A stretch of 52,925 nucleotides of DNA, from positions 1-52,925 of the forward strand of contig JAGQWX010000033.1 of the NCBI GenBank assembly GCA_020436935.1. The letters run 5' to 3'. The notes beneath the pieces are model-generated. The model was not told where the DNA came from. It saw nothing but the letters and a program-made list of their open reading frames with translations, and searched no databases. Of this stretch, positions 16,329 to 52,925 are shown piece after piece; the first letter of the stretch is position 1; every line of letters begins with the position of its first letter. A program made the translations under genes and the position numbers. Source of the DNA: Saprospiraceae bacterium (GTDB taxonomy: Bacteria > Bacteroidota > Bacteroidia > Chitinophagales > Saprospiraceae).

Positions 16329-16363
16329 TGTAATGCAAGTGAATTTATATTAGTAATACACCC

Positions 16364-16960: not shown

Positions 16961-17142
16961 TATAAATTATCAATTTTCAAAGCCACTCTACTCCATTTGT
17001 ATAATTTATTGCCGGACCTCTTATATTTGGTATCAGGTATATTAGAAGTGCAAAAATTACATTTGATTTACCTTGAAATTCGATTTTGTTCATTTCCGGA
17101 GATCATGGGTTATATAACTCAGTCTCCAAAAGCCACTTATTT

Positions 17143-19790: not shown

Positions 19791-19793
19791 TTT

Positions 19794-26867: not shown

Positions 26868-26875
26868 AAATTAAT

Positions 26876-33368: not shown

Positions 33369-34241
33369 ATGATCGATTTTGATAAAATAATTGCCATTGA
33401 TGTACACACCCATGCTGAAGTGAGTTGCACCCAGCCTCACGACGATTTCCGTTCGGAGCTGGATGAGGCTTTTGCCCGCTATTTCAAATCAGATAAGAGG
33501 CCAACCATGCAGGAAACTGCAGACTTCTACAGAGATCAGCAATTGGCATTGGTCATGTTTACCATCGATTCAGAACATGAGGTCGGCAAAAAAAGGATTC
33601 CAAATATTGAGGTGGCGGAGTGCGCTCTGAAAAATGATGATGTGATGATTGCTTTTGCCAGCATTGATCCCCACAAAGGCCGCATGGGGGCGAGAGAGGC
33701 CAGAGAGCTGATAGAAAATTACGGGGTAAAAGGCTTCAAATTCCATCCCACTGTCCAGGGTTTTTACCCTCTCGATAAGATGGCTTACCACTTGTATGAA
33801 GTCATAGCCGAGTATAAGCTGCCCATGTTGTTTCACTCGGGTCACTCTGGTTTTGGTTCCGGGGCCAGAGGTGGAGGTGGACTCAGGCTGGAATACTCCA
33901 ATCCCATGCACCTCGATGACGTTGCCATAGATTTTCCGGATTGCCCCATCATCATAGCGCATCCCAGCTGGCCTTGGCAGGACGAAGCCCTTTCGGTCGC
34001 CATGCACAAACCCAATGTGTACATAGACCTCAGCGGCTGGTCGCCAAAATATTTCCCCAAACAACTCGTGCAATATGCCAATACCCTGCTCAAAGACAAG
34101 GTCCTGTTTGGCACTGACTTTCCCCTCATCACGCCCGAGCGATGGATGAAAGACTTTGAGGAGGCTGGTTTCAAGGAGGAAGTTAAACCTCTGATTTTAA
34201 AAGAGAATGCAGGGAGATTGCTGGGCTTGAAAAATCAATAA
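33369..34241 (+). CDS. Amidohydrolase-2 family protein, candidate aryl-beta-ketoacyl-CoA hydrolase (CouO-like)
   Basis: 290 residues of the amidohydrolase superfamily with the HxH motif in DVHTHAE, a histidine in FHSGHSGFG, another in IIAHPSWPW and the final aspartate in LFGTDFPL. Proteins of this subgroup hydrolyse 4-hydroxyphenyl-beta-ketopropionyl-CoA to 4-hydroxybenzoate and acetyl-CoA in coumarate degradation by Rhodopseudomonas and Rhodococcus (CouO). The SDR, hydratase and ligase for the earlier steps are in this window, and PobA takes up the product. The specific reaction is inferred from family resemblance plus context; gamma-resorcylate-type decarboxylases share the fold. Its end overlaps the convergent galD gene by 7 bp. 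Confidence 0.75.
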   Translation: MIDFDKIIAIDVHTHAEVSCTQPHDDFRSELDEAFARYFKSDKRPTMQETADFYRDQQLALVMFTIDSEHEVGKKRIPNIEVAECALKNDDVMIAFASIDPHKGRMGAREARELIENYGVKGFKFHPTVQGFYPLDKMAYHLYEVIAEYKLPMLFHSGHSGFGSGARGGGGLRLEYSNPMHLDDVAIDFPDCPIIIAHPSWPWQDEALSVAMHKPNVYIDLSGWSPKYFPKQLVQYANTLLKDKVLFGTDFPLITPERWMKDFEEAGFKEEVKPLILKENAGRLLGLKNQ

Positions 34242-35320
34242 TTTTCCGGCAGAAACACCGTTCCGGAAGCAATCGGTCTTGCGGTGCGAATGACCCCACT
34301 TTGCAGGATTTTTATGCCGTCCACACCATGTTCCAATGTCATTGAAACGGTCATTTCACCTGAGGGGTGTTCAATCTGAAGTGCATCAAACGAATTGTCC
34401 AGATTTTGAAGTCCATCGGCAACCGTACCCGGGATGAGGCAGGCAGCAGCTACTGAGACGGCGCCAAGAACGCCAATCGAGCTGTGGCAGGTATGCGGTA
34501 TAAAAGTACGGGTATGAATAAATCCTCCGTTGATAGGTGGCGCGAGGAGACACATTTTCGGAACGGTTTTGTGGGTCACATCCCCCAAATTCATGACTTT
34601 CCCGGCCTGAAGCCGTATGGATTCCAGCCTGGCTTTGAGTTTATCATTGGCATCCAGCTCCTCCTTACTTTCATACGCCCTTATGCCAAAATCCTCTGCG
34701 CGCAGGATAACGCAAGGCATGCCATTGTCAATACAACTCACGCGGATGCCATCAAAAACATCGGTCAAATTTCCAGTCGGTAAGAGTGCGCCACAATTGG
34801 ATCCGGCAACGTCGAGGTGATTACAAACAATGGCAGCACCGGTTCCAGGCACACCGTCCACCTTTGCATCACCGGCATAAGTAATAATGCCATTAGGAGA
34901 TTGCACCGTCACTTCACACAAGCTACCGGTATTGACCATATGCACTGTTGCAGTTGTCGTCCTTTCTCCTGCCTGAACCCAGCCCTTTTCCATCGCATAA
35001 GGAAGCACACCTGCCAATATATTGCCACATTCCTGAGCCGTCGTCGCCATGCCTTTACCAATGACAATCTGCACAAACAAATAATCAAGATCTGCATCAG
35101 TCCTCGAAGATGGACCCACTATCGCCACCTTAGAAGTCAGCGAATCTCCACCTCCAAGCCCATCTACCTGTCGCTTATCACCCTGACCAACGCCTTCCAT
35201 AATGGCCAGCAGCAATCGATCCCGCTCACTTATATCAGTAGGAATATCAGAGGCATCCAAAAAAACACCTTTGGAGCTGCCGCCCCTGATGAGCATAAAT
35301 GGTATGGATGGTTGCGGCAT
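34235..35320 (-). CDS. galD: 4-oxalomesaconate tautomerase, PrpF family
   Basis: Converts the keto form of 4-oxalomesaconate, made by LigI, to the enol form that GalB hydrates. The 361-residue protein has the size of GalD of Pseudomonas. Family signatures are MLIRGGSSKGVF at the start, GLGGGDSLTSKVAIV, TAQECGNILAGVLPY with the conserved cysteine, MPCVILRAEDFG, and THKTVPKMCLLAPP towards the C-terminus. PrpF (methylaconitate isomerase) is the main alternative, but no methylcitrate genes are present and the pathway needs a tautomerase. It is transcribed alone and towards the amidohydrolase gene. Confidence 0.88.
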   Translation of the reverse strand: MPQPSIPFMLIRGGSSKGVFLDASDIPTDISERDRLLLAIMEGVGQGDKRQVDGLGGGDSLTSKVAIVGPSSRTDADLDYLFVQIVIGKGMATTAQECGNILAGVLPYAMEKGWVQAGERTTTATVHMVNTGSLCEVTVQSPNGIITYAGDAKVDGVPGTGAAIVCNHLDVAGSNCGALLPTGNLTDVFDGIRVSCIDNGMPCVILRAEDFGIRAYESKEELDANDKLKARLESIRLQAGKVMNLGDVTHKTVPKMCLLAPPINGGFIHTRTFIPHTCHSSIGVLGAVSVAAACLIPGTVADGLQNLDNSFDALQIEHPSGEMTVSMTLEHGVDGIKILQSGVIRTARPIASGTVFLPENY

Positions 35321-39065: not shown

Positions 39066-41930
39066 CTACCTCGGTATAGTCACCGTCACAGTAGTTCCAT
39101 TTTGATTGCTATCGATAGCAATGTCGTATTGGTGGCCCGCTCCCTGGTAAATGTGCGCAAGCCTGTTTTGGGTAATGCTGACGCCCAATGAACGGTGGGC
39201 TTTATTGATTTTGTCAGGCAGGATGCCCCCTCCATTGTCTTTGATACTGATCAGGATATTTTCAGCATTGGCATCAAAGTTTATATTGATTTTACCTCCT
39301 GCGTTTTTTCGGCCCTTCATGCCGTGAATGATGGCATTTTCCACAAAAGGTTGAATGAGCATGGGTGGAATGTGGCTTTTAAGCAGGTCATGGTCAGAAG
39401 AAGCAGTAACTGCGTATTCAAATTTACCATCGAAGCGCAATGATTCCAGTTCGCAATAGGCTTCCAGCATTGCCATTTCATTTTCAATGGTGATGGTATC
39501 TTCGGTAGAAGCCAGCAAGTATTGTCTGATCAGTTTTGCGAATTTGCTCAGGTATTCCATGGCTGCCTCCTTTTGATTTTTCATGATGAAGCCCTGAATT
39601 GAATTCAAACAATTGAAAATAAAATGGGGATTCATTTGAGCTTGCAAGGCAGATTTCTGGAGTCGGTTGATTTCATTTTCGATTTCATGGGCTTTTTTCA
39701 ATCGGCTTATCCTACTGCGATAAATCAAATAAGCGGATGAAATGAAAAGCAAGGCCAGTAAAGCTTTAAACCAAATGGTGTCGTACCAGGGAGGATTGAT
39801 TTTAAATTGGATGGTTTTAATGGCTGTTAAATCTCCCGAAGGTTTAATGCCTTGTATGGAAAGGATGTACTTGTCAGGAAGCAATGAAAAAGGATACTCT
39901 ATTTCTTTGCCATTTTCTACCAATTCCCATTCCGTCATGATGGGATCAATTTTGTATTTTACTTTTCCCAATTCAGCCCGATCCCAGTGGTTTACGTAGG
40001 CCCTCCATTTTATGGTATTCTGATCGTGATTCAATTGAATATTCTTGTTTTCTTCCGAATCAAGTTTCCATTTAATTCCCTTGACCATGAAATAGTCTAT
40101 GACCAAATCATGAGAAGTGTCCGCAGAGAATGCATCACTTATGGAATAACTAGATAAATAATCTGTTGCTATAAAAATGCTGTCATTATCGATGGTAAAT
40201 GCTGGGCGGGATTCAAATGTTTTTTTAGTAAAAAACCGGATTTTACCGTTGGTTTTATCATATGAGCCGAGCCTGTTTTCGGTATTGAAATATACGTGGT
40301 TTTTGTCCTGCTCCAGATGGTAAACACTTTGACCGGATATTAGCTCATTACTTTTGGAAAGATTAATTATTTGATACAAACTATCAACCTTGACCAGTCC
40401 ATCATTGGTAGCCGCAAAATGTTGCTTCTTTTTCTCATCATAAATAGCAGCATTTACAAAGGAACCAAGATCAATGGATGTGTCTTTTGATTGTTGAATT
40501 ATCAATAATTTAGATGAAGACGCACTGAATGTTTTGACGTCAGAGCTCAGATGGCCAATGAATTGGAAATCATAATAGCCTATTTTGGAATTGGGTAAAG
40601 ATGCAAAAGTTTTTTTATCATAAGCCAACAATTGAAAATCAGAATTTATAAACAAATGGTCACCCATAAACTTAAAACTATGAATTTGACCAATTGAGAG
40701 TAACTCTTGAGTTTTTACACTGTTATTTTTAACGTTAAATAAATAACAGTGATATCTCCCACAGAAAAACACCCGATTGCTATCTAAAATTTCAGCATTA
40801 ATGATTATGTCTTCGAGTAAAAATTTACTAGGAAAACGAATGGATTTTACTACATTATCTTTTATAATTTTGATTTCGTTGTCTCTATCAAGCAAAATGA
40901 CAATGTTGGTCCCTTTTTTAACTACATTCCATCTATTTTTTGAACTTATGGTTTTGTAATCTCCAATATATTTTCCAAAATCAATTTTTTGAATTCCTTT
41001 ACCATGAATGGAAATAATTGCCTCTTGATTTTGAGAAATGAAAACATCGTATGCCTTTTCACTATTTAAATCAATGGAGTTGGTAAATCTTCTCAATCGT
41101 GTATCAAAAATCTTTACACCATTTTGATCCCCATAAAGGAATATAAACTGTTTAAAGTTTGATGAATAATAATTTGTTATTTTACTATGAACTCCCCAAG
41201 GAAATAAAAGTATAGGACATGAGTTTTTGACATCAAAAAGTGCCAATCCAAAGTTTGTAATCAACCACAATTCTTCTTCGATTTCGAAAGCATTGAATAC
41301 TCTTACATTTTCATCAGACAAAGTACATTCTTTTAAATTGAAATATTTATTTGTACAAATGCCGTTTGTTGATTTTGACCAGATCTCGAATCCAGGAGCA
41401 TTAGACCAAGGAGAAGCTACAATTTTATCCTTGAAATTAAGAAAGTAATTCCCTTTTGTAACACCATGATTTTTTATGATCTTTTGCTTTTCAACATCAA
41501 AGGAAAGCAGTAAACTGTCAGCCCTCAACCAAATGGTTTTTCCATCTGCATCGATATGGAAAACGCGGTATTCTTTTTTGAGAATCTTATCTTCTAAGCT
41601 TAACTTGAAGCAGTTGAATCGATCATCTTTTTTGTCATAATAACAGAGATATTCATAGGTTGAAGTCCAATACCTTTCTAAATTATCTTCAAAAAGTGGG
41701 CTTTGTATAGCAGTCCCTTTTAAACCGGACGTAGAATCATTAAGAGCGTAGTATTTGATATTTTTTCCATTGTACCGGTTAAACCCATTGGTGACGGATG
41801 CGATCCATAACTCATTATTTATTTCGGTGAATAAGGTATTGTATTCCTTTGATAGTAAATTGAGTCCATCTTGTGCTTTAAGACACAATTGAATCATCAG
41901 GAATATTGAAAATAAAATTATTTTGTACAA
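39066..41930 (-). CDS. LytS-type sensor histidine kinase with Reg_prop/Y_Y_Y sensor
   Basis: 954 residues. A signal peptide (start codon TTG) leads into a periplasmic two-component-regulator propeller (about 25-610) and a Y_Y_Y domain (about 630-715). One membrane helix (about 718-742, LLALLFISSAYLIY) joins it to the cytoplasmic kinase: the phospho-accepting histidine is in QAQMNPHFIFNCLNSIQ (about 768), the ATP-binding N box is FVENAIIHG and the G box is DNGGGI. It phosphorylates the LytTR regulator encoded two genes upstream in the same operon. The gene starts 6 bp after the CxxC lipoprotein gene. The ligand is unknown. Confidence 0.9.
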   Translation of the reverse strand: MYKIILFSIFLMIQLCLKAQDGLNLLSKEYNTLFTEINNELWIASVTNGFNRYNGKNIKYYALNDSTSGLKGTAIQSPLFEDNLERYWTSTYEYLCYYDKKDDRFNCFKLSLEDKILKKEYRVFHIDADGKTIWLRADSLLLSFDVEKQKIIKNHGVTKGNYFLNFKDKIVASPWSNAPGFEIWSKSTNGICTNKYFNLKECTLSDENVRVFNAFEIEEELWLITNFGLALFDVKNSCPILLFPWGVHSKITNYYSSNFKQFIFLYGDQNGVKIFDTRLRRFTNSIDLNSEKAYDVFISQNQEAIISIHGKGIQKIDFGKYIGDYKTISSKNRWNVVKKGTNIVILLDRDNEIKIIKDNVVKSIRFPSKFLLEDIIINAEILDSNRVFFCGRYHCYLFNVKNNSVKTQELLSIGQIHSFKFMGDHLFINSDFQLLAYDKKTFASLPNSKIGYYDFQFIGHLSSDVKTFSASSSKLLIIQQSKDTSIDLGSFVNAAIYDEKKKQHFAATNDGLVKVDSLYQIINLSKSNELISGQSVYHLEQDKNHVYFNTENRLGSYDKTNGKIRFFTKKTFESRPAFTIDNDSIFIATDYLSSYSISDAFSADTSHDLVIDYFMVKGIKWKLDSEENKNIQLNHDQNTIKWRAYVNHWDRAELGKVKYKIDPIMTEWELVENGKEIEYPFSLLPDKYILSIQGIKPSGDLTAIKTIQFKINPPWYDTIWFKALLALLFISSAYLIYRSRISRLKKAHEIENEINRLQKSALQAQMNPHFIFNCLNSIQGFIMKNQKEAAMEYLSKFAKLIRQYLLASTEDTITIENEMAMLEAYCELESLRFDGKFEYAVTASSDHDLLKSHIPPMLIQPFVENAIIHGMKGRKNAGGKININFDANAENILISIKDNGGGILPDKINKAHRSLGVSITQNRLAHIYQGAGHQYDIAIDSNQNGTTVTVTIPR

Positions 41931-41936
41931 AGCGGG

Positions 41937-42827
41937 TTAATCTGGCATATTCCACATAGGTGGACATGGGTTAGCAATAGCTCCGGTGGGGTAAGCTGGG
42001 TTATAATCTTGTTGTCTAAGTAGGCGTCTGTGAGTAGACCTCCTGGAACCTGTGTTGGACTCAATGTAGTCATTGTATCCTACGAATTTATAAGAGAAAT
42101 ATTCTTTGCTACAACTTTTATATATCTTATCTCGACTTTCTTCGGTCTTGGCTTCCAAATTGTTGGTAACAATTAAAGCCCCACCTATCCCAACATAATC
42201 AGAGCTTTTTGCGATGAGTAATAATTCATGCCTTGAAATAAATGCTTTTTTGAATGTATCACGAATAGCTATATTATTAAACATAAATTCATTGTGATTA
42301 AAACCATCTGAGCGCAAGACCATTACGTCCTTGAAATTATGATCTCCTGGTGGTAAAGAGTCAGATGTTATTGACATGAAGGAACCGCCTAAAATAATAG
42401 GACTACCAACCAATTCCCTAGTGCTTGAATCATTTTCAATTAACCATACTGGATAAAACTCAAACCTGTTTCCTGGAGTATCTAAATTCGCAATTTGTGG
42501 TTGAATATAATAGCCAGATAAAATTACTCTTAGGCTGATAATAGAATCCAAATTGCAGCTATCATTAAATTCAGAATTGGTTTCAATTATTATTTCCGGA
42601 TTATATTGTATATACAATAGGTTAGAGCAAATGGTATCTTTCGAAAAGAAAACAGTTGTGGATGATTCCTCACATCTTTTATTATGGCAAAGTTCACAAT
42701 TATCACATTCATCACACTTCTTACAATTAACACAATTGTCGCAATTATTAAATTTCTCGCAAAATTCTTTTAAGATTCCACAACTAGTAAAAAACAATGT
42801 CAACACAAATAAATAAACCAGTTTCAT
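41937..42827 (-). CDS. Lipoprotein with a ladder of CxxC motifs, in a two-component operon
   Basis: 296 residues; the lipobox is FFTSCG with the lipid cysteine at 16. Directly after it, residues 23-52 hold nine closely spaced cysteines, mostly as C-x2-C (for example NCDNCVNCKKC, then CDNCELC). Such a ladder could bind metal ions or form redox-active disulfides. The remainder is beta-rich without a recognised family. It is encoded between the LytTR regulator and its sensor kinase, with 6 bp to the kinase gene, so it may present the signal to the propeller sensor. No related named protein is known to me. Confidence 0.68.
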   Translation of the reverse strand: MKLVYLFVLTLFFTSCGILKEFCEKFNNCDNCVNCKKCDECDNCELCHNKRCEESSTTVFFSKDTICSNLLYIQYNPEIIIETNSEFNDSCNLDSIISLRVILSGYYIQPQIANLDTPGNRFEFYPVWLIENDSSTRELVGSPIILGGSFMSITSDSLPPGDHNFKDVMVLRSDGFNHNEFMFNNIAIRDTFKKAFISRHELLLIAKSSDYVGIGGALIVTNNLEAKTEESRDKIYKSCSKEYFSYKFVGYNDYIESNTGSRRSTHRRLLRQQDYNPAYPTGAIANPCPPMWNMPD

Positions 42828-42909
42828 ATTTTTTCTTATAAAAGTATTCCACTAAATAATTGACAATTGTCGTCATGATTATTCGGAAAAACCTGACTTA
42901 TATCCGGTA

Positions 42910-43659
42910 TCATCCACTTATTTTTAGGCGGTCCAGAAACTCCTGCTTTTTCCTTCTGCTGATGGGAATTTGTTTGCCATTCTCCATCAACAGTACACCT
43001 CCATCGTCTCTAAGATACTTTTTTACCCGGTTGATGTTGACCAGGTGGCTGGCATGAACGCGGATGAAGTCTTCAGGATCGAGCATGCTTTCGATATCTC
43101 CTAAAGTCTTGCTCACCATGACGTAACTCTGGTCTTTAAGAAATATAGTACAATAAGCTCCGTCGGCTGTGCAGTAGATGATGTCTGCCGGGTGAACGAG
43201 ACTGATGCCTTCTGATGTTGAAAGACTGATTCTTGACCCACCGGTATCGTGTTTGTCCAACAGCAATTTTTTAAGCGCTGCAACTGAGAGTTTTTCCTGT
43301 CGACTCATCACCTTGTGAACAGCCTGTATGACGTCTTTGGGGCTGTAGGGCTTGAGCAGGTAGTCGACTGCCTCCACCTTAAATGCCTGCATGGCATAGG
43401 AATCGTATGCCGTTGTGAATACAATGTAAAAGTTGCGCTCCGGAAGTATGTTCAATAATTCAAAAGCATTGCCATCTTCAAGTTCGATGTCCAGAAATAT
43501 GAGTTCGACATCATTATTTTGCAGAAAATCGTATGCAGATTTGACGGAATCGGCCATTCCGATCAATCTGATTTGCGGGCAATATTCATGAATGATGGAA
43601 GACAATAAGTCCTGAGAATGGACTTCGTCCTCTATCAGCAGGCAGGAGATTGAGTGCAT
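42910..43659 (-). CDS. LytTR-family response regulator
   Basis: 249 residues from ATG 43659; an upstream frame to 43701 adds 14 residues outside the receiver fold. The receiver domain (1-115) has the acidic pocket LLIEDE, phospho-acceptor aspartate in LIFLDIELEDG and the lysine in YLLKPYSP. The LytTR DNA-binding domain (about 145-245) shows FIRVHASHLVNINRVKKY and ISRRKKQEFLDRL. It is the partner of the LytS-type kinase in the same operon. Its targets are not visible. Confidence 0.92.
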   Translation of the reverse strand: MHSISCLLIEDEVHSQDLLSSIIHEYCPQIRLIGMADSVKSAYDFLQNNDVELIFLDIELEDGNAFELLNILPERNFYIVFTTAYDSYAMQAFKVEAVDYLLKPYSPKDVIQAVHKVMSRQEKLSVAALKKLLLDKHDTGGSRISLSTSEGISLVHPADIIYCTADGAYCTIFLKDQSYVMVSKTLGDIESMLDPEDFIRVHASHLVNINRVKKYLRDDGGVLLMENGKQIPISRRKKQEFLDRLKISG

Positions 43660-43764
43660 TGGTATTATTCCGTTTTGAAGAACAAATGAAATATACACCA
43701 ATATTTTATATACCTTGATAAAGAATGGACAAAAATTTTACTACTTCTAAGATTTCAAAAACTT

Positions 43765-44862
43765 TTATATTCTCGCCGCATCCACGACCACATATGGCCC
43801 CCGAAAATCCTGAGGCAGCTCCGGGCTGAAATTAACCAGATAGACAAACCCTTTTTTCTGTATGGCCCAAGGTTTTGCTTTCAGAATTGAATGTAAAGGG
43901 TCTCTTTCGTCTAGGGTGCATAGTAAGTTGGCCGGGTAATTTTGTGTCTTGCAAATGTGGCTGAGCAAGGCACTGAATAAGGGCTCTGACCTGTCTTTGA
44001 TGACAATGTCGTGGAGATAAAGCGTCTTCAATAAACCCCCTCCTTTTGGAAGAATGGGGAGCGGAAGAAACGATAGCAACGGCAAAATGGCTTTTAAGGC
44101 TTTGAGGTAAAATGGATACCTGATGATTCTGGTAGTTTTGATGGCCGATGTATCCCAAAGTGCCATGAATCCCAATATTGTTGAAGGGTCGGACTTTTCA
44201 CTTATGATGAGGTAATTTTGAACACTCAAGCCTTGATTATACGATTGATCATTGGCCGACATAGATTCAAAAGGTGCATATGCCAAATGTTTTTGTTCCT
44301 GCTCTCGCAGATGGTCCATGGCCTCAAGGTCAGACGATTCCGCTCTCCTAATCAAATAATCAGGAGGACTTTTGAATGTGTTTTTGGAAGAAAAAAGAAA
44401 GCTGGTGATGGTAGCTACCTGGTGGTAGAGAGGCAAACCTGTTATATTTTTCTTTGCTTGCTTTTGGATCATTTCAACCATCAGTTGGTTGTCTGCAAAA
44501 ACTACGGTCATTGCTGCGAGGACATTCCAGTTAAGGTTTAAGCTGGCAACAAAGCGCAAGATTCTCAGAAAGAGGCTGCCATTTTGGAAATCGGGATGGA
44601 TGCGGAGATCACAGAGGTAGTGGACATCGGCCATTTTCTCGTTTACAAATGCTGGTCTTGTGCCGATATTGAAAACGCCAACAGCCCCTATTTTTTCATC
44701 TTCACAGACATAGACTTGAGGTTTGCGGGTCTGGATTTTACTACCCGCAATATAGGATGGACTGCGTTCCAGGGCGAGCACAAGGTCTCCTGAAACCGGG
44801 ATGTTGCAGAGTTTGATAAGGGCAGCGTCATCTGTGGTCTGGTATGGGCGGATAGTTATCAA
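43765..44862 (-). CDS. GNAT-type acyltransferase-like protein with tandem domains
   Basis: 365 residues. The N-terminal half (MITIRPYQTTDDAALIKLC, GAVGVFNIG, LCDLRIHPDFQNGSLFLRIL) follows the GNAT order, with the acetyl-CoA loop reduced to FQNGSL. A second, more diverged GNAT-like half starts near residue 168 (YLIRRAESSDLEAMDHL). The start is a TTG that overlaps the stop of the GH3 gene as TTGA, so translation is probably coupled. Last gene of the UnbU/UnbV operon. It may acylate the operon product or be a regulator of it; the substrate is unknown. Confidence 0.75.
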   Translation of the reverse strand: MITIRPYQTTDDAALIKLCNIPVSGDLVLALERSPSYIAGSKIQTRKPQVYVCEDEKIGAVGVFNIGTRPAFVNEKMADVHYLCDLRIHPDFQNGSLFLRILRFVASLNLNWNVLAAMTVVFADNQLMVEMIQKQAKKNITGLPLYHQVATITSFLFSSKNTFKSPPDYLIRRAESSDLEAMDHLREQEQKHLAYAPFESMSANDQSYNQGLSVQNYLIISEKSDPSTILGFMALWDTSAIKTTRIIRYPFYLKALKAILPLLSFLPLPILPKGGGLLKTLYLHDIVIKDRSEPLFSALLSHICKTQNYPANLLCTLDERDPLHSILKAKPWAIQKKGFVYLVNFSPELPQDFRGPYVVVDAARI

Positions 44863-46412
44863 AAGTCGTCAAGAAAATCTACAGGAAAGATAAGAGGCAG
44901 TTTGGCATCGCCTTCCTTCAAAACCATTTTTTGACAATAATATTGAAAAAGCCGTAGGTCGCCACCCTCGCCTAAATGAAACAATTGCAGGTTTTGCAAC
45001 TGGCCCAATTTGATGGCTTGCGCATAATATGGATTTGTGGATAAAATGGCCTCGGCCATTTGTTGTAGAGACGGAATGCATTCCGTCTCTACAACCACCA
45101 ATAATTGATATCCCAACCCATTTTCAGAACGAACCGGCACCAATCCCATGGCCTTCACGCCTGTTTTATCCTTTAAAATCTGAATCATTTCCATCACATG
45201 TTTTGATGTCAATTTTTCACCTACCAAATCCGATGTCTGGTTCTTACGTCCTTCAAAAATAAAACAAGGCACCTTTCCAAGGAATCCACTGACTGTCACC
45301 AAATCAGACGTAGCGTACCTGTAAAGACCTCCTCCGGTGGTCAGGATGACCTCATATGTTTTGCCTCTTTCCAGTTGATGGGCCAAAAACACTTCACCAC
45401 CCGGTTGGTGTCTGAACTCATAAAAGTGCGAATGATATGACAAAGCTTTCATGCCTGAGGCCATCGGTACAGTCACAATGCCTTCTGTAGAGAGCAAGCC
45501 CTTGCCTTCTATGGGTACATTCCCAAGCAATGCTTTCAAATCGTTTTGCCATAGAGCAGCCTGGGCGTCGGTCCAGCAGCTGACCAATTGCAGATTTGGA
45601 AAAACTACTGACCAGTTTCCTTCCTCAAATCCACGTTTGATCATGGTTTTCCTACTATTACCGCATTGGAGCTGCGACAAGATTTCTGATAAATGTTCCC
45701 GGATGAATGATTGTATTTTCAGCATATAGGTAGGACTCCAAATCGAAATAAAACTCAGGTCTTCTTTTGCCAGCAAAGCCACGCTCAAATGGAAAAAAAA
45801 TTCATCAGCTTCACTGATTTGCGAAATGGACGGAGGTATGGCCATTACCTTTCCCATCATCCACGCTTCCAACCTACCAAGATACTCCAAGTCGTTTTGA
45901 ATTCCAATGCGAAGACCTCCGCTTGTCACTTCTCGATCCTTTACGGCAGGAGAAATGGACCAATATTGGTGTCCGGAAAATATTGCCGGATTTTTTTTGT
46001 ATAACTCGTGCATCCATACACTCAGCCCTGCCTGAAATTCACCTTTGAGCCTGGAGGTATAGGGAATCCATTTGGCCTTTCCTGATGAGCCCGATGTGGT
46101 CTCAAAAAACACAATTTCTTCTTTGGTCAACACATTTTTCTCGCCTGCCGCAATCTTATCAATATATGGCCTCAATTGTTCAAATTCTTCTATGATGGGG
46201 ACTTTGGACGCATAAGCTAAATGACCTTTTATGCCAGCAAAGTCAAAAGTTGCTCCATAAGTAGTATTTGAATTTGTATTAAGATAGTGGGATAATTTCT
46301 CTGCCTGAACGTCTTCCAATTTTTTGCAAAAGTGCATGAACCTCCCATGAGCCGGCTGCATAGAGCGTAGCCAAAGCCTGGAAATGATATTGGGGAGGTT
46401 GAATTTTTGCAT
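44859..46412 (-). CDS. GH3-family adenylating ligase (acyl-amido synthetase-like)
   Basis: 517 residues of the GH3 family, enzymes that adenylate carboxylic acids and couple them to amines, best known from plant hormone conjugation. The ATP motifs are ETTSGSSGKAKWIPYT (104-119), LLSTEGIVTVPM and YRYATSDLVTVSGF. Bacterial members are found in biosynthetic settings but their substrates are mostly unknown. The C-terminal domain contains a 34-bp palindromic DNA element translated as about residues 440-451 (VVETECIPSL). The gene lies 2 bp after the RAYT gene and overlaps the GNAT gene by 4 bp. Confidence 0.85.
   Translation of the reverse strand: MQKFNLPNIISRLWLRSMQPAHGRFMHFCKKLEDVQAEKLSHYLNTNSNTTYGATFDFAGIKGHLAYASKVPIIEEFEQLRPYIDKIAAGEKNVLTKEEIVFFETTSGSSGKAKWIPYTSRLKGEFQAGLSVWMHELYKKNPAIFSGHQYWSISPAVKDREVTSGGLRIGIQNDLEYLGRLEAWMMGKVMAIPPSISQISEADEFFFHLSVALLAKEDLSFISIWSPTYMLKIQSFIREHLSEILSQLQCGNSRKTMIKRGFEEGNWSVVFPNLQLVSCWTDAQAALWQNDLKALLGNVPIEGKGLLSTEGIVTVPMASGMKALSYHSHFYEFRHQPGGEVFLAHQLERGKTYEVILTTGGGLYRYATSDLVTVSGFLGKVPCFIFEGRKNQTSDLVGEKLTSKHVMEMIQILKDKTGVKAMGLVPVRSENGLGYQLLVVVETECIPSLQQMAEAILSTNPYYAQAIKLGQLQNLQLFHLGEGGDLRLFQYYCQKMVLKEGDAKLPLIFPVDFLDDF
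45062..45095. repeat. 34-bp perfect palindrome inside the GH3 gene
   Basis: GTTGTAGAGACGGAATG followed by its exact reverse complement. It shares TAGAGACG with the second 34-bp palindrome at 46678 and is read in frame as part of the protein. Confidence 0.9.
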
Positions 46413-46414
46413 GT

Positions 46415-46999
46415 TTACGGGTATTCATCAGTATGGTCCTTTTCCCAATTCCTTGGGTTGTTGGCTATATAATTAGAAATGCGTTGAAATTCTTCATCAT
46501 TTCTAATGATGTGGTCATGATAGCGCGGTTGCCATTGAAATGTGGAATTTATCAAACGGGCATTTTTTGTTACCCCAATTTTATATCCACGAATAATGGA
46601 TGCCAAATTTTGGGATTGTGGACCAAAATGGTTCATGGGCGTTTTGCCATCCCAATCGTGGTATTGTAATGGCGTTTGTGATAGAGACGCAAAATTTTGC
46701 GTCTCTATCACCGTTCCAATCGCATCATTTTTTTGAATGATAATAATTCCGTGTACATGGTCAGGCATGACGACAAATTCACCCAAAATAACAAATGGAA
46801 AATGTTGTGGTATTTCATGCCAACAATTCCATGCATGCACACCTATTTCTGATAAAACCATAATTCCATCGCTGATTCTACCAAAAAAATGATCCCTGTT
46901 TTTGGTACAAATGGTGACAAAATAGGCGGCATTCCATCCGTAATTCCACCATTGTGCTCTGGCGCTTTCGTTCCTATATTTATTTTGAAATTTTCCCAT
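46415..46999 (-). CDS. RAYT: REP-associated tyrosine transposase (IS200-like, Y1)
   Basis: 194 residues of the Y1/HUH superfamily. The HUH motif is VVMPDHVHGI; the catalytic tyrosine is in RISNYIANNPRNW near the C-terminus. WNYGWNAAYFVTICTKNRDHFFG is the usual start of the Bacteroidota RAYT group (start and end shown here only as a short motif: AAYFVTICTKNR). All expected parts are present, so it looks intact. It lies between an operon gene ending 1 bp before it and the GH3 gene starting 2 bp after it, without IS ends. A 34-bp palindrome lies within the gene at about residues 97-108. Confidence 0.9.
   Translation of the reverse strand: MGKFQNKYRNESARAQWWNYGWNAAYFVTICTKNRDHFFGRISDGIMVLSEIGVHAWNCWHEIPQHFPFVILGEFVVMPDHVHGIIIIQKNDAIGTVIETQNFASLSQTPLQYHDWDGKTPMNHFGPQSQNLASIIRGYKIGVTKNARLINSTFQWQPRYHDHIIRNDEEFQRISNYIANNPRNWEKDHTDEYP
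46678..46711. repeat. 34-bp perfect palindrome inside the RAYT gene
   Basis: GTGATAGAGACGCAAAA followed by its exact reverse complement. Like the copy at 45062 it is 34 bp, contains TAGAGACG arms, and is translated in frame (VIETQNFASL). Palindromes of this type are plausible substrates of the RAYT enzyme. Confidence 0.9.
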
Positions 47000-47000
47000 T

Positions 47001-47777
47001 TCAATCTATCGCTTCATACCCCCTCAAAAAATAATTCTTCACCGACCTTCTGAAATTATCTGCACTGATTTCAGTAATACACACCAATTCATCGCCTTTT
47101 TCAAATCCGGGGTTTTTCTCCAGAAAAAAAGAAATGTTAGGGCTCTTGGATTTTTTGAAAGAATCGTCAGACAATTCCTTTTTGAGGGATCCCTGGTTGT
47201 CGGGAAATTCAATAATGCCCTTTCCAGGTTTCCAATATTCGCCATATAAAAGGGTAGAAACTTCATGGGCGATAGACTTGAATAAATATTCTTCCAGACC
47301 TGGCTCTGGAGCTGGGTAATATGATTCAAAAAATAAAGGAAGATAAAGGTAAGTGCGGTGACCTTTTGACATCAGGTACCAATACCACTTTTTGGATTGA
47401 TCAGATTTGCTGATCCAGCCTACACTCATCGTCCAGCCTTTGACAATAATCTGCGTGCCCCAATGCGCCGGATCGATGATCGTATCCCCAGAAAAAATAA
47501 TGTTATAATTTTCTGTTCCACTGCCCTTGGGGTTTACGGCATAGGTAGTAAATCCAACGAGCTCGTCATCTTCACTGGCTATCATGCCCACATATTGCTT
47601 TACAGCAAGGTCTTTTTCAAAGGACAAGCGGGACATGTGGTCGTAATTTTTGACCATAAGCACAAACATAAGGTCAATGATTTCCGGGCTTAAGTTCTTA
47701 CGAGGTACCAGGTAGTAAAACAGCCCCCCATCTTCAATAAAGGCATTGTTGCCAACAGCGATTTGTGACCAGTTCAT
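47001..47777 (-). CDS. Protein of unknown function, possibly GNAT-like fold
   Basis: 258 residues from ATG 47777, whose ATGA overlaps the stop of the Rieske gene; a TTG at 47783 would add two residues. No signal peptide or membrane segment. A stretch in the first half (VGMIASEDDELVGFTTYAV, then IDPAHWGTQIIVKGW) recalls the central strands and cofactor region of GNAT folds, but the pyrophosphate loop is not clear. Tryptophan and tyrosine are frequent (KKWYWYLM). It is coupled to the Rieske gene and so probably acts in the same pathway. Confidence 0.6.
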   Translation of the reverse strand: MNWSQIAVGNNAFIEDGGLFYYLVPRKNLSPEIIDLMFVLMVKNYDHMSRLSFEKDLAVKQYVGMIASEDDELVGFTTYAVNPKGSGTENYNIIFSGDTIIDPAHWGTQIIVKGWTMSVGWISKSDQSKKWYWYLMSKGHRTYLYLPLFFESYYPAPEPGLEEYLFKSIAHEVSTLLYGEYWKPGKGIIEFPDNQGSLKKELSDDSFKKSKSPNISFFLEKNPGFEKGDELVCITEISADNFRRSVKNYFLRGYEAID

Positions 47778-48817
47778 ACCCAAAATTCAATTTCTTTTTT
47801 CAATGGAGGTGGAGGTGATTTTTGTTCTTCACTGGCCTTCCGCAGGTTTTCAATGTAAAGGTGCATCGTATCTGCCTGTGTGGACCTGTAGTCCTGGTAG
47901 CCAAATTCCCTGACATTGTCTCCATGTTTTTTCATGATCCATACGTCCTGGCTGATGACTTTGCGCGTATAACTGTTGAGCCCAAGTTTTGCTATCGGGG
48001 TCAGCCAGCCAAATTTATACGTGATCAAAGTGTAAACCATCGTCGAAAACGGAGCAACCGGTGTGCAGGTTGACGTAATGATAAAGCCGCGTTCTTCGGC
48101 TCCGTAAATGTAGTCTACCCTCGTATTGTTGGGCATGTAAAAGTTGTCGGTGTGTTTCATTGGGAGATTCTTCGGGTTGATCAGCCAGCTTGAAAATCCA
48201 ATGGCATCATTGCTTTGGTCATAGGTGACGAGCACACTGTCGGACGTGCGTTCTACGTCGGCTGTAATGCGGATTTGTTTCCTGTCGCGAAACCAGCCTT
48301 TGTGCACAAAAATGGTGTGGGGTACATCCATGAAGTTTTCGACAAGGTCGGTGACATTGTTTTCAAAATGGGTCACCATGTAATAATGGTTCCACTTCTT
48401 TTCTGCCATGACCGGCATAGGAAAGGGATCCTTAAATGGTGGCGTGCTCCTGCCCATCCAAATCCACACCAATCCATACCTTTCTTTCACTGGAAAACCC
48501 TCCACTTTTTTGGTCGGAATGCGTTCGACGTGTGGGCCTTCTGAGGGAATTTGTACACATTGGCCTTCTCCATTGTACACCCAGCCATGGTAGGGACAGA
48601 CGATGCACTGATCCACAATTTGGCCATCACTCAGAGGTACGTTGCGGTGGTTGCACCGATCAAGAATGGCTGCGATGCTGCCATCATTTTTTCTCCAGCA
48701 TACGATCGGCACTTCAAAAATCCTCACCTTCACCGGCTTACCCTCCTTAAAACCGGAAGAGAGTCCTGCCGCATACCAACTGTTGACCAGATTCCCTGAC
48801 GTTTCGTACATGCTCAT
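47774..48817 (-). CDS. Rieske non-heme iron oxygenase
   Basis: 347 residues. The Rieske [2Fe-2S] ligands are CNH (C55, H57) and CPYH (C74, H77); the mononuclear iron site is ENFMDVPHTIFVH (H167, H172). This layout matches single-component terminal oxygenases of the VanA / pheophorbide-oxygenase group, which demethylate, hydroxylate or desaturate and need an external reductase; none is encoded in the window. It overlaps the desaturase gene by 4 bp (ATGA). Because of this operon it more likely modifies a lipid or secondary metabolite than vanillate. Confidence 0.87.
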   Translation of the reverse strand: MSMYETSGNLVNSWYAAGLSSGFKEGKPVKVRIFEVPIVCWRKNDGSIAAILDRCNHRNVPLSDGQIVDQCIVCPYHGWVYNGEGQCVQIPSEGPHVERIPTKKVEGFPVKERYGLVWIWMGRSTPPFKDPFPMPVMAEKKWNHYYMVTHFENNVTDLVENFMDVPHTIFVHKGWFRDRKQIRITADVERTSDSVLVTYDQSNDAIGFSSWLINPKNLPMKHTDNFYMPNNTRVDYIYGAEERGFIITSTCTPVAPFSTMVYTLITYKFGWLTPIAKLGLNSYTRKVISQDVWIMKKHGDNVREFGYQDYRSTQADTMHLYIENLRKASEEQKSPPPPLKKEIEFWV

Positions 48818-49818
48818 AACTTTACTCCGGTGTGTTTGGTGGATCTAAAAATCAAGAGATGTCCAGGCATGGACTTTGCGATGCGCAACCACTCCAGCCA
48901 TGATATTCTGTTTTCCTCAGGATTTTCCATCTTTCCCAACTGGTAAGTCGGTATCCATGGAAATTGGTGGTGCAAGCCATGGCGGTTGCTGAAATACAAA
49001 AGATATTTTTCCATCCATAAAGGATAAACGATACTGCGTGAGAAAAAGGACTGGTCAATGTGCCTTACTGGTTTGACATCCTCGATTTCTATATCGTGGT
49101 AGTCCAGATGAGTATGCTGGCTGAGCAGCATGGGATCTGAAATGGTCAGATATAAAATGAAAGCCAAGAGCCAAAGCTGAATATACAGGATAGGGCCAAG
49201 CAAAATGAGCATGGACAAATGCGCAAGTGCTATAAAATAGATGCTGCGACTCATCTTCTGATCATTTCTCTTACCTGGAAAAAGCAGTCGTAGCCTCGAA
49301 AGCTTATAGAAAGTCTGAATGGTATATGAAAATGCAAAAATGGGGATCCAATACTTCCAGCAAAAGTCTACCAAGCTGATCTGTCCTGGTGTCAATTCCT
49401 CAAATTTTCGTTCCGGGATCGTAGGATCAAATTCACGCCAACCCGTCCATTTGTGGTGGGCATGGTGCACCAACTTCCATGGATAATAGGGAAGCAATGA
49501 AAAAACCGAAGCCAGCAAGCCAAAAACATCATTGAGTTTTTTTGATTTGAAATAACTTCCGTGACCAAAATCGTGCAGGAGGAAAAACCATTGTACCATA
49601 ACAATACTCAATGCCATCTGACCCAGCAGCCACCAGTACCACTGGCCCTGGAGCGACAGCAAGATGGCCAGTCCTGTGATGGAAAGTTGCCAAATGATGC
49701 CAATAAGCGCTTTGAGGCTTTGCTGCCTGAGCGAAGCAGCAAGCCTGATTCTGCTCTTTTCTTCGTCAGATACGGCAGGTTTTTCCGAAAGCGGATTATT
49801 GAGGGTCACCACTTCCAT
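48814..49818 (-). CDS. Membrane fatty acid desaturase family protein
   Basis: 334 residues with the three histidine boxes of the family: HDFGH (82-86), HHAHH (118-122) and HGLHH in the last quarter, between pairs of hydrophobic segments. These bind the di-iron centre at the cytoplasmic face of the inner membrane. Members desaturate or hydroxylate acyl chains, carotenoids or alkanes. The start overlaps the end of the UnbU/UnbV gene by 23 bp and the end overlaps the Rieske gene by 4 bp, so it is embedded in the operon. The substrate is unknown. Confidence 0.88.
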   Translation of the reverse strand: MEVVTLNNPLSEKPAVSDEEKSRIRLAASLRQQSLKALIGIIWQLSITGLAILLSLQGQWYWWLLGQMALSIVMVQWFFLLHDFGHGSYFKSKKLNDVFGLLASVFSLLPYYPWKLVHHAHHKWTGWREFDPTIPERKFEELTPGQISLVDFCWKYWIPIFAFSYTIQTFYKLSRLRLLFPGKRNDQKMSRSIYFIALAHLSMLILLGPILYIQLWLLAFILYLTISDPMLLSQHTHLDYHDIEIEDVKPVRHIDQSFFSRSIVYPLWMEKYLLYFSNRHGLHHQFPWIPTYQLGKMENPEENRISWLEWLRIAKSMPGHLLIFRSTKHTGVKL

Positions 49819-52591
49819 TCTGGCTTATTTTGATGTATTGATTGATAGACGACGTATGGTAGGTCAAGGTTTGACCATTGTGCCATTTTATATCCAACCT
49901 AAGATCTGTGATTTTGCCTTGGCCAAGTCCAAACAATATCCTTCCGTCACCCTGGGCAGAAAATCCATTGGCCAGGTGTTTTTCGCGCATCTGTTTCCGG
50001 TTTATGCCCTCTTCTTTATAAGTAATGGTGATCTGTGTCCCCACTGCATTTCTGTTGGTCGTAATGCCGTTGCCTTCCAGAGTCAGCCCAAGCCATTGCT
50101 GACCTTCATTCACCTTTGTTTCATATAAAAATGGATGGCCAAACTGATGTGTCACCAGTAAATCGACATCGCCGTCATTGTCAAAATCAGCCGCACAAAC
50201 ACCCCTGGTATTGGCTTTGTGCACAAAACCTAGCGCTTCTGTAGCATCGGAAAATGACTTGCCACCCTGATTGAGAGAAATCCTATCGAGCTCATTGGGG
50301 TAAATGTAGCAACCTCTGATATCTGCCCACTTGTCGGCATAAGAATGGATCTCCGGTCCAGTGCGGGCGATCTGTGCCTGGTAGTACCAAAAGTCCTGGG
50401 CTTCATCCCATTGTTTGTCCCAGGCATCATCGACCATGCCATTGGCCTGGATCACATCGAGCCAGCCGTCGAGATTGAGGTCGGCCATTGCAGCCCCCCA
50501 GCCAAATCTGTTGGTATTGAGCAAGTTGAATTTTTGGGCTGATTCTTTGAATTTATATTCCTTACCTTTTCCTTCATTCATCCAAAGCAAAGATCCCTCA
50601 GCCTGCATGGCGTGGTGCACGTTGCTGATGTAAATGTCTTCTTTACCATTGCCATCGAGATCTCCCACGCTTGCATTCATTCCCTTGTAAGTATCCAGCC
50701 CAACATCTCCATAAAAGACGCCCTGGATTCTTTCGAAACGCTGATCGCCTTTGTTGATGTACCAATCGTCTCTTCCAAAATCATTGGCGATAAAGAGGTC
50801 TGTGAGACCATCTTCATTCATATCTAGCGTCCCAACTGCGAGGCTCCAACGCGTTTCTTTCAGCCCACTCTGCGCCATTGATATCGGTTCAAAAATACCT
50901 GTTCCGCCCTTGTTGTGCAGCAGGTAATTGAGTCCACCGTTGTCTGCATTGTGCCAGGACTCGTGTAGAAAATGAAACATTCTTCGGTCTCCTTCATATT
51001 CGGCTTTGGGCAGGTCGAATAAATTGAGGGCTACCTTTTTATTTCCATAATCGGGCAAATATTGGTGAAGTGTATTTGTAAGGAGGAGATCGAGGCGGCC
51101 GTCGTTGTCGAAATCTGCGGCATTGGCAGCGAGACAGACGGTATTTTCAGCCAGAAATGCAATGTCAACTTCTTTAAAATCAGCCCGTCCATCGGGTATC
51201 ATTTTATTTTCGAAATAATGCGATCTGCCAAAGCCAAAACCTAAAAAGAGGTCGTCGTCGCCGTCGTTGTCATGGTCCATGAATAAGGCAAAACCGGGAA
51301 TTCCATGAACCTTTGGATCGTCTAAATATCTCTCCAGGTCCGGAATTGCCACTTTTTCAAACTTAAAGCCACCTTTGTTGATGTACAATTTGGCCATGTC
51401 CTCCTTGCTTTTGAGGGGTTGGGTCAAAAACAGATCTGGCAGTCCATCCAGATTGATGTCGGCACTGGCTGCTGCGTCCCCGACAGACAATACCCATTTT
51501 GCCACATGAGCTACTCTGGGATCCACAGATTCTATGGTACTTCCTCTTCTCCCGATCAAACCTGAAAACTCAGGATCGATCAATTCAAGTTGCATCTCGC
51601 TGCCATCGCTCTTTTTTTCGCCATTTCCAATCCCTGAAAGCAGCCACGCGGGCAAAAATGCGATGCCCAACACAGAATATTTCCAGCCCAAACCGGGAAG
51701 CGCTCTCCTTTCAAGAAAAGCACCACCTTGAGCATCCATCAGGGCTTTGATGTGGAAATAAATGAACCTACTTGCCGCCACCGTAAAGCCGGCAAAAAAG
51801 AAGGTATAGTAAGACAATTTGAGGTGGTAAATCAAGTCGAGTAAGCCAATGGCAACGCCCACCAGTATTTGCGACTTTTTATCAGGAGGACTTGTAGCCG
51901 GATCTGTGATCATGTAAAATGAAAACAGATAAAAGGCCGGAGATGTCAATGACCCAACAATCAGGGTCTCATAGGGGATAATATGCTTCATGATGACAGC
52001 CCTCACAATGGTTTGCACAGTAAAGGTGATGAGCCACGCGAGAATCAAATACGTCCTGTTGATCTTAAAAACAAATAACAATAGAGCTCCTGTGATCACA
52101 AAAAATGTCATCATCCAGGCTGTAGCTGCGCTGCCATACCACTGGTAAGATGGCGCCAGGGTAATGGCCTCATTGCCGAGCAAAATGCACGCAACAATGG
52201 CAAACAGGGACGGATTGAAAAAGTGTTTCCCTTTGAAAGTGAGCACATATTTGGACAAAATGCAAATGAAGACGGGCAGAAACAAGTTGTGCAAGTCAAA
52301 GGACCAATTGAGCAGAATGGCGAGAGAAGAGCAAGAAATCATGGCCGACAATGGAAACTTCTTCTGACCCTGGAGTATGCCAGCGAGCAACATATCGAGC
52401 AAAGCCCCGGCTGTTATGACCAGCACTATTTGCATCGGCTTGCGGCTAAAACCCAGGAAGAACATGCCCATACCCAGATAAAACCACAACAACAAAAGTG
52501 CCCGCCACCTGACGTCGCTGATCTTTGGAGCAGCAAAACTACCTGTCCATTTACCCGGGTTTAATAATATCTTGTATTCGGCTATACTCAT
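49796..52591 (-). CDS. UnbU-UnbV fusion: RnfD-like membrane domain plus FG-GAP/VCBS repeats and ASPIC domain
   Basis: 931 residues. The first 315 form about ten membrane segments related to RnfD/NqrB and to UnbU of enediyne clusters (FNPSLFAIV, then YMITDPATSP). From about 350 to 800 there are seven Ca-binding FG-GAP/VCBS repeats (DINLDGLPDLF, DHDNDGDDDLF, DFDNDGRLDLL, DMNEDGLTDLF, DLDGNGKEDIY, DLNLDGWLDVI, DFDNDGDVDLL). The C-terminus is an ASPIC/UnbV domain (NAVGTQITI, KHLANGFSAQGD, LFGLG). In enediyne loci UnbU and UnbV are separate adjacent genes; here they are one chain. The repeat part should face the periplasm. First gene of the operon. Its biochemical role is not established. Confidence 0.85.
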   Translation of the reverse strand: MSIAEYKILLNPGKWTGSFAAPKISDVRWRALLLLWFYLGMGMFFLGFSRKPMQIVLVITAGALLDMLLAGILQGQKKFPLSAMISCSSLAILLNWSFDLHNLFLPVFICILSKYVLTFKGKHFFNPSLFAIVACILLGNEAITLAPSYQWYGSAATAWMMTFFVITGALLLFVFKINRTYLILAWLITFTVQTIVRAVIMKHIIPYETLIVGSLTSPAFYLFSFYMITDPATSPPDKKSQILVGVAIGLLDLIYHLKLSYYTFFFAGFTVAASRFIYFHIKALMDAQGGAFLERRALPGLGWKYSVLGIAFLPAWLLSGIGNGEKKSDGSEMQLELIDPEFSGLIGRRGSTIESVDPRVAHVAKWVLSVGDAAASADINLDGLPDLFLTQPLKSKEDMAKLYINKGGFKFEKVAIPDLERYLDDPKVHGIPGFALFMDHDNDGDDDLFLGFGFGRSHYFENKMIPDGRADFKEVDIAFLAENTVCLAANAADFDNDGRLDLLLTNTLHQYLPDYGNKKVALNLFDLPKAEYEGDRRMFHFLHESWHNADNGGLNYLLHNKGGTGIFEPISMAQSGLKETRWSLAVGTLDMNEDGLTDLFIANDFGRDDWYINKGDQRFERIQGVFYGDVGLDTYKGMNASVGDLDGNGKEDIYISNVHHAMQAEGSLLWMNEGKGKEYKFKESAQKFNLLNTNRFGWGAAMADLNLDGWLDVIQANGMVDDAWDKQWDEAQDFWYYQAQIARTGPEIHSYADKWADIRGCYIYPNELDRISLNQGGKSFSDATEALGFVHKANTRGVCAADFDNDGDVDLLVTHQFGHPFLYETKVNEGQQWLGLTLEGNGITTNRNAVGTQITITYKEEGINRKQMREKHLANGFSAQGDGRILFGLGQGKITDLRLDIKWHNGQTLTYHTSSINQYIKISQNGSGDPQ

Positions 52592-52629: not shown

Positions 52630-52925
52630 GTGCATAGATGGCATGGATCGCATGGATGGCATAGGTTGCATGGATGGCATAGGTGGCATAGAGGGCATGT
52701 ATCGCATAGATGGCATGGATGGCATAGGTGGCATAGAGGCATGGATTGCATAGAGGCATAGTCCCAATCGACCATTCATCATCCCTTTAAGGACTGAGGG
52801 GCAGAAGGCAAAGATGGCATAGAGGCATGGATGGCATAGGCATAGTCCCAATCGACCATTCATCTTCCCTTCAAAGACCGATGGTCAGAAGGCAAAGATG
52901 GCATAGAGGCATGGATGGCATAGTC
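52630..52925. repeat. GGCATAGAT-type minisatellite and longer repeats at the right edge
   Basis: From about 52630 to 52755 there are degenerate 9-10-bp units (ATGGCATGG, GGCATAGAT). Then a longer unit beginning GGCATAGTCCC starts at 52755 and 52839 and begins again at 52917, giving periods of 84 and 78 bp; each holds CCAATCGACCATTCAT. The array runs out of the window. Frames through it encode only MPSMP-type repeats, so I call no gene. No promoter for the UnbU-UnbV gene can be recognised. Confidence 0.85.

Follow-up and report, generated by a model that had tools for sequence, protein, structure and literature searches.

We identified a biosynthetic gene set that is conserved across bacterial phyla and is represented by an operon on the minus strand at positions 43765-52591 of contig JAGQWX010000033.1, from the Saprospiraceae bacterium assembly GCA_020436935.1. 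The window analyzed here is this whole contig of 52,925 nucleotides, part of a 5.8-Mb genome in 181 contigs. The core of the set comprises a fusion of an UnbU-like membrane domain to a CRTAC1/UnbV-like propeller (hereafter the fusion protein), a Rieske oxygenase, a GH3-type ligase and two GNAT-type acyltransferases, GNAT-A and GNAT-B; one or two desaturases and a small membrane protein often accompany it. We propose that the system makes an oxidized, lipid-like N-acyl amide, a reading to which we give a probability of about one half. We found no description of the gene set among the titles and abstract beginnings listed from the open-licence literature, including work on UnbU/UnbV with enediynes, and it is apparently undescribed – a new, widely conserved combination of known families.

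The operon contains seven open reading frames (ORFs), ordered 5' to 3' as fusion gene, desaturase, Rieske oxygenase, GNAT-A, a transposase, GH3 and GNAT-B. An earlier reading by a model that saw the letters alone (the sequence-only reading) had placed seven minus-strand genes here, and the ORF coordinates agree. It had described the junctions as overlaps or gaps of 1-2 bp; taking the first possible start codons, we found two gaps, of 1 and 2 bp, and four longer overlaps, of 23, 4, 10 and 4 bp.

We scanned 84,980 species genomes with four fusion proteins and two exact peptide patterns and obtained 147 relatives, a lower bound. Locus counts come from the best 80 of these 147, a sample biased towards close relatives, in which contig ends truncate 40 loci to less than 22 kb. 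Within 10 kb of the fusion gene, we found a Rieske oxygenase at 66 of the 80 loci, GH3 at 59, GNAT-A at 58, GNAT-B at 51, the small membrane protein at 48, a desaturase at 47 and a B12-type radical SAM protein at 10. The Rieske oxygenase, GH3 and GNAT-A occur together at 52 loci, and at least one of the four main partners (Rieske oxygenase, GH3, GNAT-A and GNAT-B) is present at 72. More than two thirds of the fusion genes (57 of 80) have a same-strand component no more than 150 bp away, adjacency being counted on stop-to-stop frames, which understates gaps. The profile step omitted one fusion, which has masked bases, but retained its neighbors. Thinning the sample to 60 loci (less than 80% identity) left 49 with a Rieske oxygenase, 43 with GH3, 41 each with GNAT-A and GNAT-B, 37 with a desaturase and 36 with the small membrane protein; Rieske oxygenase, GH3 and GNAT-A co-occur at 37 of these loci, and any of the four main partners is found at 54.

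These counts bear on the simplest alternative – that an ordinary CRTAC1-type protein happens to lie beside unrelated genes – which the neighbor survey refutes and to which we attach next to no weight. It could appeal to the eight loci that lack all four main partners in reach, but the presence of at least one partner at the other 72 (and at 54 of the 60 thinned loci), across ten phyla, contrasts with an absence of matches to any of ten profiles in 20 stretches of 20 kb (400 kb) from the window's own genome. Fusions standing alone among unrelated genes, which the sequence-only reading had named as evidence that would count against it, are thus not what the survey found. Seven of the eight genomes without a partner nearby have GNAT-A elsewhere, as do 13 of all 16 genomes examined for it. 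In Neisseria elongata, GH3, the Rieske oxygenase and GNAT-A lie together on another contig than the fusion gene.

By record titles, the fusion tree covers ten phyla: Bacteroidota, Spirochaetota, Pseudomonadota, Myxococcota, Bdellovibrionota, Planctomycetota, Gemmatimonadota, Verrucomicrobiota, Cyanobacteriota and Elusimicrobiota. One further fusion comes from a metagenome-assembled genome (MAG) titled Omnitrophota. Records titled as Myxococcus, Corallococcus, Massilia, Marivirga and Planktothricoides strains are among the carriers. Most of the fusions closest to the window's in the tree come from Saprospiraceae, and Marivirga is also represented. The loci differ in gene order and strand, which argues that function, rather than mere inheritance as a block, keeps the set together. 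Distances between fusion proteins correlate with those between their partners (r 0.81-0.93, with none of 500 permutations as high), a pattern that shared descent alone could also give. A fusion from a record titled Comamonas sp. KCTC 72670 is nested within Myxococcus in the tree; this record may be misnamed, as MAG titles can be wrong.

The fusion gene (49796..52591, minus strand) encodes a protein of 931 amino acids with an UnbU-like membrane domain (ten helices plus one), an FG-GAP propeller and an ASPIC/UnbV tail. Pfam recognizes NQR2_RnfD_RnfE at residues 22-253 (44.5 bits, cut-off 27.7), FG-GAP repeats, and UnbV_ASPIC at residues 848-919 (43.2 bits, cut-off 23.4). The AlphaFold model has a predicted local distance difference test score (pLDDT) of 89.6 and a predicted template modelling score (pTM) of 0.90. 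Among PDB structures, it resembles CRTAC1 (E 3e-21) and the RnfD chain 8rbq_D (E 9e-6, template modelling (TM) score 0.63 by target length, root-mean-square deviation 6.3). In a VIA-align comparison, all 50 rows among the matches listed cover the propeller part, so the membrane half stays outside it. Pfam and AlphaFold together identify a real UnbU-CRTAC1(UnbV) fusion. The family profile places both halves in a single ORF at 77 of the 80 loci; two of the other three are cut by a contig end and the third has masked bases. The sequence-only reading had correctly joined an UnbU-type N-terminal half and an ASPIC/UnbV-type C-terminal half in one polypeptide, as the Pfam hits over cut-off and the family-profile scores indicate, and the RnfD/UnbU similarity whose absence it had named as a possible refutation is present in both Pfam and profile searches. 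It had treated the fusion as peculiar to this operon; the fusion is instead the usual form of a family spread over ten phyla.

The N-terminal half belongs with UnbU rather than RnfD: its family profile matches the proteins in the UnbU position of four enediyne-type cassettes (three on Streptomyces plasmids and one on a Sinorhizobium plasmid) at 103-112 bits, versus, with filters off, 28.5 bits for the RnfD and 9.8 bits for the NqrB of the window's own genome. The four UnbU-position proteins are annotated, respectively, as UnbU, as an 'enediyne biosynthesis protein', as RnfD-type and not at all. They form one branch in the tree. For the fusions the tree needs two changes of label, owing to a single row (L114) with an open position at the base; the fusions may have a single origin.

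The fold of this half suggests an alternative role for the fusion protein, as an electron-transfer module whose flavin-bearing RnfD-like domain feeds the Rieske oxygenase and the desaturase. RnfD and NqrB (of Rnf and Na+-NQR) share with the fusions the fold matched by NQR2_RnfD_RnfE and a TDP motif, which is present in 75 of 76 fusions, and no reductase is encoded among the seven operon genes to supply these oxidative enzymes otherwise. However, SGAT – which we take to be the motif for covalent flavin mononucleotide (FMN) – is found in the genome's own RnfD and NqrB but is not conserved in the fusions. Even the looser S[GAS]AT occurs in just 3 of 76, and the window's version (SAAT) sits in a stretch missing from 56 of 68 aligned rows. 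We saw no SGAT in the four UnbU sequences. In addition, provided that there are indeed 11 helices, the propeller would lie outside the cytoplasm, far from where we take the active sites of the Rieske oxygenase and desaturase to be. We therefore consider such a module distinctly unlikely. Electron transfer or export at the membrane, the roles that the sequence-only reading had suggested for the fusion, stay conjectural. A Rnf/Nqr complex proper was rejected: the RnfD and NqrB genes of this genome are found on different contigs from the operon, the profile scores are weak, the FMN motif is not kept, and Pfam identified no further Rnf/Nqr subunit among the operon genes.

The C-terminal half does not appear to be specifically UnbV, because ordinary CRTAC1 proteins score equally high. 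Its profile gives 162-219 bits with the cassette UnbV proteins, 149-206 bits with ordinary CRTAC1 proteins of the same genome and 155-268 bits with those of Saprospiraceae genomes (main ORFs, picked as best matches). The UnbV identity given by the sequence-only reading is thus supported by the UnbV_ASPIC hit over cut-off and weakened by these scores. Relative to CRTAC1/ASPIC proteins in general, the fusion protein differs in carrying a membrane domain and belonging to a biosynthetic operon.

Adjoining homologs of UnbU (E5) and UnbV (E4) also occur in enediyne polyketide synthase (PKS) cassettes. An excerpt of PMC5181780 names the cassette E10/E/E5/E4/E3. The Streptomyces plasmid cassettes have the order DUF1702-UnbV-UnbU-PKS, followed in two of three by an acyl-CoA thioesterase and in the third by a hypothetical protein that the homology search described below matches weakly. 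The operon differs in having a single polypeptide with U before V, where the cassettes have V before U, and in having a desaturase, a Rieske oxygenase, GH3 and GNAT proteins. Phmmer queries with enediyne synthase, thioesterase and DUF1702 gave no match at E 1e-3 among 6648 ORFs of the 80 loci and the window end or among the window's own ORFs, whereas the same queries recovered all three in the four cassettes. With filters off, the best match in the loci and window reached E 0.013, which is chance level. DUF1702 likewise had no match in the window's own genome, though the controls of that search gave no match either. Since none of the three is matched, the operon is, as judged by membership, not an enediyne cluster, and the sequence-only reading is supported in so far as no enediyne-type polyketide synthase is present. 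The Sinorhizobium cassette is itself a side observation: positions 10751-20876 of L119 (Sinorhizobium meliloti T073 plasmid psymA) have no listed genes and contain homologs of DUF1702, UnbV, UnbU, enediyne synthase and thioesterase, so that this symbiosis plasmid carries a cassette of enediyne-like type.

A shared reaction is nevertheless conceivable. The UnbU-CRTAC1 pair could do what E5/E4 do, acting on a desaturated fatty acyl amide in place of a polyketide to form an alkyne or enediyne-like group without a PKS. The affinity of the N-terminal half for UnbU over RnfD and NqrB, the match of both halves to adjoining UnbV and UnbU genes in the Streptomyces cassettes, and the presence of one or two membrane desaturases at 47 of 80 loci would all fit. 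We regard this as quite improbable, given that DUF1702 (E3), the synthase and the thioesterase are without a match in a search whose positive control works, that ordinary CRTAC1 proteins come at least as close to UnbV as the C-terminal half does, that the gene order is reversed, and that 33 of 80 loci show no desaturase. A related idea – that enediyne clusters merely recruited UnbU and UnbV from an ancient pair of membrane enzymes, and that the fused pair here builds an enediyne-like or alkyne N-acyl amide with desaturases, a Rieske oxygenase and a GH3 ligase but no PKS – seems to us very doubtful.

Two oxidative enzymes follow the fusion gene. The desaturase (48814..49818, minus strand, 334 amino acids) matches Pfam FA_desaturase at 83.4 bits and has three histidine boxes, HDFGH, HHAHH and HGLHH; in all 56 desaturase rows, H[DEN]xxH and HxxHH each occur at least once. 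The Rieske non-haem iron oxygenase (47774..48817, minus strand, 347 amino acids) matches Pfam Rieske at 85.7 bits as well as VanA_C. The columns of its cluster motif CxH...CxxH and iron site N..D..H....H are invariant in all 61 aligned rows, with the usual spacing in 58. Its matches among PDB sequences are SxtT, DdmC, SxtDIOX and a 3-ketosteroid hydroxylase; its best NCBIfam match is the 4beta-methylsterol monooxygenase SdmA, at 120 bits, far below the curated cut-off of 600. A second desaturase family, found at other loci and not in the window, resembles beta-carotene hydroxylase (CrtR) at 40 bits, compared with a cut-off of 475.

The GH3-type adenylating amide ligase (44859..46412, minus strand, 517 amino acids) matches Pfam GH3 at 146.6 bits, with GH3_M over cut-off too. 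The sequence-only reading's desaturase, Rieske and GH3 calls are all borne out by Pfam. Plant GH3 structures are its nearest solved relatives (E down to 1e-16). In 56 aligned rows, the columns K-G-L..T-E, R and D of the three nucleotide-binding motifs are invariant, and 55 of the rows retain the glycine of the first motif. A bacterial precedent is OlsH, the GH3 enzyme of Singulisphaera that, according to an excerpt of PMC12493201, makes N-acyl ornithine from free fatty acids and ornithine; the same excerpt calls the functions of bacterial GH3 enzymes outside planctomycetes open. The OlsH/OlsI ornithine-lipid pathway resembles our system in using a bacterial GH3 as the amide-forming first step towards an amino lipid and differs in that, as far as that excerpt describes it, oxidative enzymes and the fusion protein are no part of it (PMC12493201), and in that the operon has no OlsI-like hydrolase.

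GNAT-A (47001..47783, minus strand, 260 amino acids) exceeds the cut-off of no Pfam model (GNAT 13.6 bits), and its profile has no match among PDB sequences. Its AlphaFold model (pLDDT 94) is most similar in Foldseek to AAC(2')-Ia and NatD (E about 1e-5, TM score 0.4-0.55), and on this model it is a GNAT by fold. GNAT-B (43765..44862, minus strand, 365 amino acids) of the window matches no Pfam family and is probably a tandem GNAT acyltransferase, to judge from weak GNAT matches in either half: the first half matches a PDB sequence at E 0.0028, and a relative's second half matches Pfam at E 0.0013, below cut-off. The GNAT-A and GNAT-B families comprise 57 and 52 rows, respectively, including the window's. 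The GNAT assignments of the sequence-only reading, which no Pfam match over cut-off supports in the window, are thus upheld by fold for GNAT-A and rest on weak matches for GNAT-B.

Comparison within the Saprospiraceae suggests how the set may be divided. The fusion is present in 4 of 150 family genomes, the window's included; 24 genomes matched at E 1e-20, 20 of them in the C-terminal half alone. The four strongest GNAT-A matches in the 150 genomes (252-274 bits) belong to the four genomes with the fusion. Three genomes that lack it come next (198-217 bits), and a further twelve have remote matches of 25-109 bits. The three fusion-less genomes ranked next carry a block of GH3, GNAT-A and GNAT-B together with one to three B12-type radical-SAM-like proteins, and around these blocks (11-20 kb per genome) we found no match to the fusion, Rieske oxygenase or desaturase. 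A scan of four such radical-SAM proteins, which come from two of these genomes, showed likeness to BchE, HpnJ, PhpK and the TIGR04013 family, all far below cut-offs; one that lies beside a fusion gave a likewise distant resemblance. Three remote GNAT-A paralogs that we examined have no adjoining GH3. From these three genomes, it appears that GH3, GNAT-A and GNAT-B form one module and that the oxygen-dependent set – fusion protein, Rieske oxygenase and desaturase – is exchangeable for radical-SAM enzymes.

An oxidized N-acyl-amide lipid is the simplest product because the set combines GH3 amide chemistry with a desaturase, a Rieske oxygenase and two acyltransferase families. The desaturase and Rieske oxygenase would oxidize a hydrophobic chain or head group, and GH3 would activate a free carboxylic acid with ATP and join it to an amine, as OlsH is described to do in the excerpt cited above (PMC12493201). 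The GNAT proteins would add one or two acyl groups. The fusion protein, presumably anchored in the membrane through its UnbU part and, as the helix count suggests, with its CRTAC1 propeller on the outside, may work with the small membrane protein in a late step on the outer face of the inner membrane. PAP2-like proteins at 8 of 80 loci and a family with weak MMPL similarity (E 0.088, below cut-off) at 14 of 80, one representative of each having been scanned, would suit a lipid. The sequence-only reading had likewise favored a lipid-derived amide, which remains the best inference from the sequences.

Several points weigh against this proposal. Some concern the survey: the partner profiles were trained on the same loci; the Rieske matches include remote ones of about 25% identity; and the control DNA comes from one genome only. 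Desaturases are not constant, with one at 37 loci, two at 10 and none shown at 33 of 80. Within the operon, a Pfam scan identified no acyl-carrier protein, ferredoxin or reductase, and no OlsI-like alpha/beta-hydrolase among the seven genes, although the esterase-family gene described below was not compared with OlsI. The GH3 enzyme scores 27.5 bits against the OlsH model NF052613 (NCBIfam), compared with a cut-off of 620, and because of this gap it is evidently not OlsH; the first, simple GH3 motif patterns fitted only 3 to 18 of 56 rows. Finally, the nearest solved Rieske relatives act on ring compounds, judging by their names, and together with the ring-type likeness of the second desaturase this would also suit a non-lipid ring substrate.

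The system might accordingly modify a sterol-, quinone-, carotenoid- or tetrapyrrole-like ring compound, with GH3 conjugating an amino acid to it as plant GH3 enzymes do with auxin or jasmonate. SxtT, KshA and SdmA, to which the Rieske oxygenase is related, act on rings; the second desaturase of related loci resembles CrtR; the radical-SAM proteins resemble, far below cut-offs, BchE, HpnJ and PhpK; and the nearest solved GH3 structures are from plants. Against this, scanned representatives of the conserved set and the neighbor clusters include no ring-forming enzyme, and the window's own desaturase falls in the fatty-acid desaturase family by Pfam. We judge a ring substrate unlikely and retain the oxidized N-acyl amide as the preferred product.

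The small membrane protein of the same system is encoded 40 kb away on this contig (3044..3700, minus strand), and is the only match to its family profile in the genome (145.7 bits). It matches no Pfam family. In three family relatives, it precedes the fusion gene, beside which it does not lie in the window. An esterase-family gene (1983-2936) adjoins it.

The remaining gene of the operon, whose identity the sequence-only reading had not given, encodes a REP-associated tyrosine transposase of 194 amino acids (46415..46999, minus strand; NCBIfam 56 bits, cut-off 80; Pfam Y1_Tnp 24.8 bits, cut-off 23). It occupies 588 bp between GNAT-A and GH3, leaving gaps of 1 and 2 bp and the operon apparently unbroken. 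We found a homolog at none of the 80 related loci and so rejected it as a pathway member; remote relatives lie on other contigs of the same genome. In three near relatives, GNAT-A abuts or overlaps GH3, and some others have a gap or another order. The transposase is a guest and not part of the pathway. The coherent biosynthetic system put forward by the sequence-only reading is supported by the conservation of its neighbors, with the exception of this one gene in seven.

Upstream of the fusion gene, the contig continues for 334 bp and stops within a tandem repeat array of 9/84-bp units (52632-52923), so the context on that side is cut; a second array, of 75-bp units, lies at 6273-6744. On the other side of the operon and on its strand, genes for a LytTR regulator, a 296 amino acid ORF without a Pfam family and a histidine kinase (39066-43701) begin 63 bp after it, so that co-transcription is possible. 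We rejected the regulator and kinase as members of the system, as neither has a homolog among the fusion-side ORFs in three family relatives. Further away, positions 6817-21077 encode a LigB dioxygenase, GFO/IDH, PIG-L, RraA-like, amidohydrolase and two FAD monooxygenase proteins, then SDR, enoyl-CoA hydratase, an AMP-binding enzyme and an MFS carrier – which we take to be an apparent aromatic breakdown pathway of the protocatechuate meta-cleavage type. PrpF and a second amidohydrolase are encoded at 33369-35320, and tandem ORFs of 1867 and 345 amino acids at 21264-27913 have no Pfam family at E 1e-5. Rfam gave no match in the window.

To our knowledge, what UnbU and UnbV do in enediyne biosynthesis is not settled. 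Their functions could be approached through a PKS-free system in which the two are fused. This system also points to a natural product or membrane lipid that is widespread and in whose synthesis bacterial GH3 enzymes take part.

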